26,857 nt of DNA from a virus, in IMG/VR virus record IMGVR_UViG_3300028827_000145, positions 1 to 26,857 of that record; one strand, 5' to 3'. Shown here piece by piece: positions 2,361-9,924 of this stretch; position 1 is the stretch's first letter; each line of letters opens with the position of its first letter. Under the pieces are notes generated by a model. The model had not been told where the DNA came from. It did no database searches and was given only the letters and a program-made list of their open reading frames with translations. The translations under genes and the position numbers were made by a program.

Positions 2361-2465
2361 GCCGGCCGCAAGGCCGGCACCTGCTTGTGTAGCAGGCGAT
2401 GCTGCTACCCGGGCAGCCTGGCATGCCCGGATCATAAGACTTACAGCCTTGGCCAGGCAGGGCAG
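2361..2465 (+). promoter_or_regulatory. Structured intergenic RNA element, copy 2
   Basis: The spacer holds a perfect 7-bp stem GCCGGCC/GGCCGGC closed by a GCAA (GNRA) tetraloop (2361-2378), CCTGC/GCAGG (2380-2384 with 2392-2396), and a perfect CCGGGCA/TGCCCGG stem (2409-2415 with 2424-2430). It ends just before a GGAGG ribosome binding site. Compared with the spacer at 944-1073 it shares, in order, a GCCGGC hairpin, GCTTG-x-T-x-GCAGG-x-GA-x-TGC, TACCC, CATAAG and CCTTGGCC-x-GCAGGG. A pair of related structured leaders in front of two accessory genes suggests a shared RNA-level control element. Confidence 0.5.
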
Positions 2466-2478
2466 ATCGGAGGTAGAT

Positions 2479-2811
2479 ATGAAGCGATATCTTTTTAATG
2501 CGGCAATGATGCCGTCCGAGGGGATTTATACTTTGAAAAAAATCTCTAAGGACGAATTCTTGTCAACCCTTAGAGAGTGGGGAGATGACTATGAGAGTTT
2601 TGTTGGCTACCCAAACGTAGCCAATGTTATTGCGGACGAGGGGATCTATGTCCCTCTCAACCGCGCTAAAGCAGAACTAACAGAGCAATCGGAAATCCTT
2701 ATAATAAAGCTAACGTATCGAATCCAAAACCCAGAAGAGAAGAAAGAAAACACGCATGGAAAAAAAATCGAAGACTACGAATTCTACTACATGAGTTTCT
2801 CTCCATTCTAA
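2479..2811 (+). CDS. DUF1874/AcrIII-1-like protein (viral ring nuclease family; catalytic His apparently replaced)
   Basis: The ATG at 2479 follows GGAGG by 5 bases; a longer in-frame TTG start at 2449 has no such site, so the product is 110 aa. It reads like the DUF1874 family (Sulfolobus virus SIRV1 gp29, STIV B116, ICEBs1 YddF): N-terminal YLFNAAM (family xYLxNAFS), TLKKIS strand and helix, a mid-protein helix after FVGYPNVAN (family IGHxxTA), IYVPLNRAKAEL (family xxxxxNRVEIKL), then LIIKLTYRI and a C-terminal EFYYMSF strand. AcrIII-1 enzymes cleave cyclic tetra-adenylate and so silence type III CRISPR effectors. By my alignment the catalytic His (His47 of SIRV1 gp29) is Tyr44 here, while Arg66 and Arg85 are kept as Arg62 and Arg81, and Glu88 is not clearly kept. 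So it may bind cyclic tetra-adenylate without cutting it, or serve another role. Last gene before a double terminator. Confidence 0.7.
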   Translation: MKRYLFNAAMMPSEGIYTLKKISKDEFLSTLREWGDDYESFVGYPNVANVIADEGIYVPLNRAKAELTEQSEILIIKLTYRIQNPEEKKENTHGKKIEDYEFYYMSFSPF

Positions 2812-7646: not shown

Positions 7647-8272
7647 TGCTACCCGTTTGCTAATTCGAGATATTGCTCTAACGCAAGCAGTAAAAGGATT
7701 AGAACCGAAATGAGCGAAATCGTTTGCTACCCTTCTGCTACCTTTCTGCTACCTTTGATTATTACTTTCTTATATAACATAATATAATATATAGTATATA
7801 ATATATAGTATATAGTATATAGTATATTATTTTAAGAATATAAAAGGTAGCAAAATAACAGCCTCTATATATATAGAAAAAAGGGAAGGTTCTGGTTTGA
7901 AAAGTATATATTATATAATTTTAATATTATACCCTCGCCGCTCGATTTTGCCGCTCGCGATTTTTCGCTCGTCCGATTTTTTTGGAGACAAATTTGTTTT
8001 TATAAAAAGAGAACTGCTATTTTGCTACCTTTAATAGAAAGACCCTTGATTTTATTGGCCTGTATAATAATTAAGGGTAGCAAAAGGGTAGCAGAACGGT
8101 AGCAAAAGGTAGCAAAAGGGTAGCAGAACGGTAGCAAAAGGTAGCAAAAAGAAATAGAAAATAAAGATAAGATTAAGGGTAGCAAAAAGGTAGCAAAACG
8201 GTAGCAAGGGGTAGCAGAAGTAAAAAATAAAGGTAAGATTAAAGGTAGCAGGAGGGTAGCAGGAAGGTAGCA
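7647..8272 (+). repeat. Iteron array flanking an AT-rich element: candidate replication origin
   Basis: A 660-bp gap with no supported gene. GGTAGCA occurs at 7846, 8076, 8087, 8098, 8108, 8119, 8130, 8140, 8178, 8189, 8200, 8210, 8244, 8255 and 8266. The inverted form TGCTACC occurs at 7647, 7725, 7736, 7747 and 8023. Within blocks the steps are 11 or 10 bp, one helical turn. A longer unit of about 32 bp (three iterons) is itself duplicated at 8087-8146. Between the inverted and direct blocks lies AT-rich DNA (7758-7845) with tandem AGTATAT units, then three CGCTCG-GATTTT repeats at 7939-7971. Blocks are separated by a recurring AAAGRTAAGATTAA. The layout is that of an initiator-bound origin with an unwinding element, directly after a primase-helicase gene. 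Confidence 0.75.
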
Positions 8273-8572: not shown

Positions 8573-8758
8573 TTTACACTTCCAAAAGACTTCCTCAAAC
8601 CTACCGTCTCAGAGGCCTTATTTTATCAGCGGTCTGGAGAATATGTGAGCCGAAGTCCGGTATTTTTCAATATTATTGGTAGCAGTCCAGATCTTAGGCT
8701 GTATTTTAGGCAGTCTTAGCAGGGTAGATATTTGGATGTTTTTTTTGTCTTTTTTTTC

Positions 8759-8786
8759 TTGACAAACAAAAATGTTATGTTAATAT
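8759..8786 (+). promoter_or_regulatory. Promoter of a gene-free transcription unit
   Basis: TTGACA (8759-8764), 16-bp spacer, TAATAT (8781-8786). No supported coding region follows before the terminator at 9031, so it probably drives a non-coding RNA of roughly 265 bases. Confidence 0.7.
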
Positions 8787-8909
8787 GGAAATGGAGATTT
8801 TGTTAGTATAAGAAGCCAGAATCTACCACAAAAAAGGGTTGGATAAAATTGGTTGACGAGAATCTCTCTGGCTTCTATCTTATTTCTACCCTGTTTCTAC
8901 CCTTGTGTA

Positions 8910-8996
8910 ACCTCCATTATAACAAGGTTTGAGACAAAAAGACTTTGATATGTAAATTTCATTTGTTTACTTCCATTAAAACAAGGTTTAAGACAA
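8910..8996 (+). repeat. Two CRISPR-like 28-bp direct repeats with a 31-bp spacer
   Basis: Copies at 8910-8937 and 8969-8996 agree at 25 of 28 positions (core CAAGGTTT-R-AGACAA). The period of 59 bp and unit sizes are in the range seen in CRISPR arrays, but only two copies exist, they differ at three positions, their internal stem is weak, and no cas gene is in the window. Could equally be protein-binding sites or paired RNA elements. Confidence 0.5.
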
Positions 8997-9030
8997 TTCC
9001 GCAATTCCGCTCCGAAAGGGAGATTGTTAA

Positions 9031-9059
9031 ATGCGCGATGATCTCGCGCATTTTTTTTT
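9031..9059 (+). terminator. Rho-independent terminator of the candidate ncRNA
   Basis: Perfect 8-bp stem ATGCGCGA/TCGCGCAT with TGATC loop and nine T residues. Confidence 0.92.
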
Positions 9060-9070
9060 GGTTTTTTCGC

Positions 9071-9097
9071 TTGACATGATCAAAATCTCTATATAAT
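9071..9097 (+). promoter_or_regulatory. Promoter of the RusA operon
   Basis: TTGACA (9071-9076), 15-bp spacer, TATAAT (9092-9097); slightly short spacing but perfect boxes. Shares TCTCTATATAATAGA with the promoter at 2956. It lies 12 bases after the ncRNA terminator. Confidence 0.75.
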
Positions 9098-9119
9098 AGA
9101 GGGAAAAAGGAGTTAGATT

Positions 9120-9545
9120 ATGGTAATTCTTCTTGAAGACTACCGGCCTAAACCCAAGCAAAGACCACGGTTTGGACGTAATCGCAATGTGTATAGTCCG
9201 TCAGCAGAGGCTGAGAGAAGCCTGGCTTGGCGAATCAAAGCAATGGTAATGGGTAGAGGCTGGCCGATTCCGGTAAGATGCCCGATAGATGTCTATATTT
9301 TTGCATTGACTAAGAAAAAGCTTCGAGGTGATAGTGATAATTACAAGAAATTCATCCTCGATGCACTCCAGAAATCTCAAGTAATAGAGAATGATAGTCA
9401 AGTGGAACTCTGTCTTTTCGTGCCTTTGCTGTGTGATGCTGACAGATTGCTAATAAGAATAAAGCCTGCAGAGGGGAGGATTAAGGAGTTTTTTGGGAAG
9501 TTTCAGATTGTGTTGGATGAATTCTATGAAAAAGATGAATTTTAG
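9120..9545 (+). CDS. rusA: RusA-family Holliday junction resolvase
   Basis: 141 residues; RusA of E. coli is 120. ATG start with AAGGAG 7 bases upstream. RusA cuts four-way DNA junctions as a metal-dependent dimer; phages use it to resolve recombination intermediates or branched DNA before packaging. Signs: N-terminal PKPKQRPRFGRN and a following SPSAEAERSLAWRI helix, then RGDSDNYKKFILDAL with Asp71, Asp73 and Asp81, and VIENDSQVEL with Asp92, matching the catalytic Asp70/Asp72/Asp91 pattern of RusA. A C-terminal extension of about 30 residues (KEFFGKFQIVLDEFYEKDEF) is extra. First gene after the promoter at 9071; it overlaps the zinc protein downstream. Confidence 0.88.
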   Translation: MVILLEDYRPKPKQRPRFGRNRNVYSPSAEAERSLAWRIKAMVMGRGWPIPVRCPIDVYIFALTKKKLRGDSDNYKKFILDALQKSQVIENDSQVELCLFVPLLCDADRLLIRIKPAEGRIKEFFGKFQIVLDEFYEKDEF

Positions 9546-9924
9546 CAGTTCATGTTGCCAGTTCTGCCATGAACCGATCACTTCTCCAAAAGGCCTCATG
9601 CTTACAGCAGAAGGCGGTATATGTCATTTGGCCTGTGCCCTCAAGGCCAAGAAATGCCTGGGGTGCCGGCTGCCTTCATTTTATTCGGTTTGCGAGACAT
9701 GCCGGAACAATTCCTCGGTTTCTTCCACGATTCTTCCCTCGATCATCTTTCACTCTCGCACAAGATGTCCCGCTTGTCAGTCAGGCAGAATAAGGCTTTA
9801 CGGTGTGTACCGCTTTACAGTCCAGGGAATTCCTGCGGTTAAGCGATGGGCACAGTGCAAAGACTGCGGGCATAAGTTCGTGACAATGGAAGAAGACGAG
9901 GAGATTGTGGAAATTTCGTCTTGA
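9526..9924 (+). CDS. Cys-rich zinc-binding protein, possible regulator, 132 aa
   Basis: Start uncertain: ATG at 9526 is chosen; ATG 9517 or 9535, or a TTG at 9493 just after AAGGAG, are possible, all overlapping rusA. The N-terminal half has CCQFC, an HLAC pair, CLGC and CETC, as in a compact two-zinc finger. The C-terminal part reads CPACQSGRIRLYGVYRF ... WAQCKDCGHKFV, a zinc ribbon of the type found in NrdR and InsA-like transposase N-termini. It ends in a very acidic EEDEEIVEISS. Not a transposase: no catalytic domain. A phage transcription factor or nucleic-acid-binding protein is plausible. Its TGA stop overlaps the -35 box of the next promoter. Confidence 0.7.
   Translation: MKKMNFSSSCCQFCHEPITSPKGLMLTAEGGICHLACALKAKKCLGCRLPSFYSVCETCRNNSSVSSTILPSIIFHSRTRCPACQSGRIRLYGVYRFTVQGIPAVKRWAQCKDCGHKFVTMEEDEEIVEISS

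Follow-up and report, generated by a model that had tools for sequence, protein, structure and literature searches.

A candidate Racr-like decoy RNA with two CRISPR-derived repeats in a tailed phage genome

We found, between genes of a tailed phage, an element carrying two repeats that are almost certainly derived from CRISPR, to judge from their sequence. We prefer to read it as a Racr-like decoy RNA in an uncommon two-repeat form rather than as a targeting mini-array, with a probability of about 0.55. The phage is known from a virus record of 26,857 bases, the whole of which was analysed and is called the window here; it encodes a beta clamp, a DUF3987 protein, RusA, terminase and structural genes. 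According to the decoy reading, the element's own promoter would give rise to an RNA of about 265 nt that ends at a terminator, and the two repeats would imitate the 3′ part of the host's type I-B/III repeats, including their 8-nt handle TTTRAGAC. Host Cas6, perhaps with Cas7/Cas5 subunits, would bind or cut this RNA, and Cas proteins would thereby be occupied by RNA that targets nothing. Transcription, Cas binding and inhibition by the RNA are the steps that we infer. The features discussed below are as follows.

2482..2811 (or 2449..2811), plus strand: AcrIII-1-like protein (PF08960, STIV_B116-like; Pfam, 37.1 bits, E 3.5e-9)
8759..8786, plus strand: sigma-70-like promoter, TTGACA-16-TAATAT with extended -10 TG (motif scan, 10/12 matches)
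8811..8876, plus strand: long-loop stem in the 5′ leader part of the RNA (arms 8811-8820/8867-8876)
8882..8902, plus strand: two TTTCTACCC motifs at an 11-bp step, in part overlapping the anti-repeat; iteron-like copies in inverted orientation
8892..8909, plus strand: putative anti-repeat, complementary to the 3′ half of repeat 1 (hairpin of -13.8 kcal/mol)
8910..8937, plus strand: CRISPR-derived repeat 1, ACCTCCATTATAACAAGGTTTGAGACAA (match to CRISPR repeat family)
8936..8968, plus strand: spacer-like stretch, 33 nt, 18% GC, with no protospacer detected by sequence searches
8969..8996, plus strand: CRISPR-derived repeat 2, ACTTCCATTAAAACAAGGTTTAAGACAA (match to CRISPR repeat family)
9001..9027, plus strand: weak hairpin with GAAA in its loop, between repeat 2 and the terminator (CUCC-GAAAG-GGAG)
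9029..9059, plus strand: intrinsic terminator, 10-bp stem and T tract

The sequence-only reading had proposed a promoter and a terminator flanking about 265 nt without a gene, and both signals were found where it had placed them. No ORF of at least 60 aa was present in 8649-9119, no tRNA was found, and Rfam gave no match. Promoter-type matches were 2-3 times commoner in the window than in shuffled sequences, so that the site at 8759-8786 is by itself only suggestive; the transcript would start at about 8793. The terminator stem (9029-9053) is perfect, with a 5-nt loop, and the segment containing it (8994-9060) folded with a z-score of -2.3 against shuffles; the value for the entire 268-nt transcript was -3.1. 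The rusA gene lies downstream and has its own TTGACA...TATAAT-like sequence past the terminator, at about 9071-9097, which was found by reading the sequence and has a spacing 1-2 bases below the range of our promoter scan. With rusA so provided, the RNA gene would stand alone. A free-standing RNA gene, predicted from promoter, terminator and spacing only, is thus very probable. The smaller structures noticed earlier fared less well: the long-loop stem exists (10 bp, perfect, loop of 46 nt), but the stretch of the transcript ahead of repeat 1 (8793-8909) folded no better than shuffles (z -0.3) and the stem was rejected as a functional element, and the small GAAA-loop hairpin is present but weak (z -0.6).

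The two 28-bp repeats reported 59 bp apart were also recovered, with 25 of 28 positions identical, and their likeness to CRISPR, which had been guessed from dimensions, was borne out by membership in a common repeat family. Both correspond to the 3′ part of the widespread CRISPR repeat TCCATTANAACAAGGATTRARAC, including the putative 8-nt handle, which we take from general knowledge of Cas6 processing to be TTTGAGAC at 8928-8935 in repeat 1 and TTTAAGAC at 8987-8994 in repeat 2. Each differs from the 23-nt consensus TCCATTAAAACAAGGATTGAAAC at three positions (20/23), whereas no other site in the window has fewer than 8 mismatches and the best site over 60 shuffled windows has 5. When the degenerate core CCATTANNACAAGGNTTRARAC was scanned across the genomes of 84,980 species, the matches listed included more than 115 genome stretches, mostly CRISPR arrays. 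Array repeats of this family are mostly 36-37 nt long; their 3′ part is constant and their 5′ half varies. In the 70 fetched genome loci with at least three repeats the period was 66-76 nt. The window element lacks the variable 5′ part, and with 28-nt repeats at a 59-nt pitch it departs from the family's complete form, in which repeats of about 30-37 nt recur regularly every 66-76 nt. Over the 22-nt core the two copies differ at positions 7 (T/A) and 18 (G/A), and both variants also occur in real arrays, where they are partly built into the search pattern. The T of GGTTT in the window repeats is rare in genome arrays, 69 of 70 having A instead. A literature search by the repeat letters returned no paper.

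The same core was present in 23 stretches of virus contigs, representing about 20 distinct viruses, and most of these viral copies are single, with no partner within 300 nt. At position -1, a base outside the search pattern, T was found in all 70 arrays, all 23 viral stretches and both window copies; the second N was A in 69 of the 70 arrays and, again, in all 23 viral stretches and both window copies. Such uniformity across the viral stretches would not be expected of chance matches. A two-repeat pattern with units of 46-76 nt allowed was matched by eight stretches of virus contigs, all with units of 70-76 nt. On contig L126 (repeat 2683-2704, minus strand) a degenerate copy with 4 mismatches lies 52 nt downstream, possibly an analogue of the window element, and on L134 a degenerate partner with 2 mismatches lies 64 nt away; these share the repeat family, the shortened spacing and the degenerate partner with our element and belong to different viruses. 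Given these two cases, the 59-nt pair of the window is thus unusual among viral copies yet not wholly alone. A genuine CRISPR array with five repeats GTTGCAACCCAGCATCCAATATAACAAGGTTTGAGAC, the last of them degenerate, was found on a 116-kb virus contig (L148, G001:C1 39129-39371), preceded by a TTGACT...TATAAT promoter-like sequence; it contains the handle variant GGTTTGAGAC, with the T of GGTTT that is rare in genome arrays, and its repeat agrees with window repeat 1 at 21 of 22 core positions. On two near-identical virus contigs (L121, 1660-1800, and L133) a solitary repeat of the family stands between CCCGTTCCCGGA and TCCGGGAACGGG arms.

ORFs near the family arrays encoded Cas1, Cas3, Cas5, Cas6/Cas6b, the type I-B Cas7 protein Csh2 and a CRISPR primase-polymerase. 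Cas10 palm matches exceeded the cut-off in 17 of 27 array genomes, about 12 of them strong; as the palm family gives a match in the E. coli control too, the weak ones are best disregarded. The TCCATTANAACAAGGATTRARAC family therefore serves type I-B and also occurs in genomes with type III. The host of the phage was sought by several routes. No arrays of the GGTTTRAGAC type were found in 349 and 292 genomes of two phyla, centred on Intestinibacter and Okeania, and the spacers of 1,219 array units gave no convincing match to the window, the longest exact run being 15 nt. The clamp, helicase, terminase and AcrIII-1-like proteins had distant or no matches among known phages and gave no clue to the host. 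A similarity search with the whole region returned nothing relevant from the phages collection. Searches of the virus contigs with the helicase, RusA, major capsid protein and terminase yielded one relative only (L141, with 72% capsid identity), whose contig ends short of the RNA-gene region, and no relative spanning that region was found in the virus contigs.

Solitary repeat units (SRU), or RNA anti-CRISPRs (Racr), are single CRISPR-repeat mimics carried by phages (PMC10651486). Like them, the window element is an intergenic phage mimic of a CRISPR repeat with an upstream promoter, ten window proteins scanned with PADLOC contained no cas or defence gene, and other virus contigs carry solitary repeats of the TCCATTANAACAAGGATTRARAC family. 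In contrast to them, it has two diverged repeats 59 nt apart instead of one without a second repeat within 100 bp, it lacks the 5′ part of the repeat, and its leader holds a possible anti-repeat. With the features of Racr present in part and solitariness absent, we describe the element as one that would work like Racr, not as an established member. The family match, the viral single copies resembling SRU/Racr and the lack of cas or defence genes among the ten proteins support the decoy reading. It is weakened by the presence of two repeats where Racrs are solitary, by the T of GGTTT that is rare in arrays, and by the finding that neither the terminator nor the anti-repeat hairpin is clearly common to other viral single repeats. 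A terminator was present at 3 of about 22 of these, against 3.5% by chance, and is not general; nor is the anti-repeat hairpin, which was found at a single one (L138). There, upstream of a solitary repeat at about 453-474, GTTTCAATC is complementary to the handle GATTGAAAC, and the hairpin has a z-score of -3.9. The SRUFinder rules discard matches below 90% identity, class 50-90% coverage as partial, and drop any repeat that has a partner within 100 bp of it (PMC10651486); from these rules we infer that the window element should have been passed over. If the decoy reading is true, RNA anti-CRISPRs include double, diverged and shortened repeats, searches for solitary repeats discard such forms so that the number of RNA anti-CRISPRs is underestimated, and the element offers a testable case for type I-B/III and for phages that stack RNA and protein counter-defence.

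The main alternative is a functional one-spacer mini-CRISPR array, in which host Cas6 would release a 59-nt crRNA (8928-8986) directed against a competing virus or plasmid, that is, superinfection exclusion. The repeat-spacer-repeat order on a virus genome, the promoter, the intact handle-like ends and the lack of a cas gene among the proteins scanned fit such an array, and there are virus-borne precedents, including a one-spacer case, in SPV1/SPV2 (PMC6858448) and in the phage mini-arrays that have been reviewed (PMC11656645). However, in those arrays the repeats resemble the host's and most spacers match related viruses (PMC6858448, PMC11656645), and the SPV arrays carry host-like leaders (PMC6858448); the repeats of the window differ from each other (25/28, where those of a mini-array should be identical to one another and to the host's) and lack the 5′ part. 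The unit of 59 nt also compares poorly with 66-76 nt in the 70 arrays and 70-76 nt in the viral two-repeat matches. The spacer-like stretch has a GC content of 18% against 44% in the phage. For this stretch, blastn gave only insignificant matches in phages and plasmids, collections of targets that are incomplete; no exact copy was present in the virus contigs, no protospacer in the fetched CRISPR loci, and the best sites within the window had 11-12 mismatches in 31. As the target space is incomplete, the missing protospacer is weak evidence, and none of these points is proof; together, the missing protospacer, the low-GC spacer and the diverged repeats without their 5′ part favour a decoy over a guide. 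A targeting mini-array is thus unlikely. The earlier proposal that the element targets rivals found no support, since no protospacer appeared (the spacer-like stretch had no significant match in phages or plasmids and no exact copy in virus contigs), the repeats are diverged and shortened at the 5′ end, and the pitch is below that of every family array examined; its other proposal, that the element hijacks host Cas proteins, becomes our preferred explanation once it is taken to mean a Racr-like decoy. The earlier reading had also allowed for an RNA of an unknown class.

Upstream of repeat 1, the leader holds the putative anti-repeat; segment 8888-8940 folded at -13.8 kcal/mol, with a z-score of -3.84 when the whole segment was shuffled; with the upstream part alone shuffled, 1.4-3.8% of sequences paired equally well, and 8% in a shorter test. 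Repeat 2 is without comparable upstream pairing (z -0.34). The paired TTCTACC motifs noted before are present, with TCTACC at 8885 and 8896, an 11-bp step as in the GGTAGC iteron-like array at 8076-8266, and they look like inverted relatives of those iterons; the overlap of the anti-repeat with them could explain its complementarity to repeat 1. The predicted hairpin between leader and repeat 1 is best called suggestive. Hairpins of leader RNA with the first repeat are known from type VI (and II-A) arrays, where they block processing of that repeat (PMC13187072); they were shown for Cas13/Cas9 arrays, whereas ours concerns an I-B/III-like repeat, a single sequence and modest significance.

The AcrIII-1-like protein noted earlier is real by Pfam (the cut-off of PF08960 is 26 bits) and belongs to the DUF1874/STIV_B116-like family, but it lends less support than had been implied. 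Its GY aligned with the GH of AFV3-109 in a weak pairwise alignment (E 0.03), and we read that GH as corresponding to the catalytic H47 of SIRV1 gp29, so that Tyr stands in the place of His and the protein argues only weakly for a type III host; its gene is 6 kb from the RNA gene, not adjacent. The H47A variant of SIRV1 gp29 is described as catalytically inactive but still able to bind cA4, its KD being about 25 nM (PMC7213978), and binding of cA4 without cleavage is possible for the window protein as well. One could picture a sponge made of both RNA and protein that acts against type III (and I-B) immunity. In a two-repeat RNA anti-CRISPR, pairing of the leader with repeat 1 would leave repeat 2 as the only one processed, or the hairpin would itself trap Cas6, and a catalytically dead AcrIII-1-like protein would possibly soak up cA4 alongside; we regard this combination as quite unlikely.

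All readings other than a decoy or a mini-array are, even when taken together, rather unlikely. A crRNA-like regulatory RNA would guide host Cas proteins by partial complementarity and repress a host or phage gene. The stand-alone gene ahead of rusA, adjoining a likely replication origin, and the overall structure of the transcript would suit such a role, against which stands the lack of a near spacer match inside the phage, and we consider it very unlikely. Equally improbable is a remnant of CRISPR DNA that was acquired from a host by recombination and is now decaying and functionless: the repeats are diverged and truncated and our searches gave no relative showing conservation, but a promoter and a terminator neatly flank the element in a compact genome, and both core differences recur in real arrays, partly through the search pattern. 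That we are dealing with origin-associated DNA sites or a replication RNA, with no link to CRISPR, is scarcely credible, for despite the 14 GGTAGC copies and the related TCTACC motifs within the RNA gene, the 28-nt repeats have nothing in common with the iteron motif and agree with the CRISPR family at 20 of 23 positions. The GGTAGC array itself probably represents replication-origin iterons, its 14 copies being direct and mostly 10-11 bp apart. Inverted copies of GGTAGC lie at 7726-7748 and 8024, and directly after rusA a weak NrdR-like zinc ribbon protein, below the Pfam cut-off, is encoded at 9493-9924.
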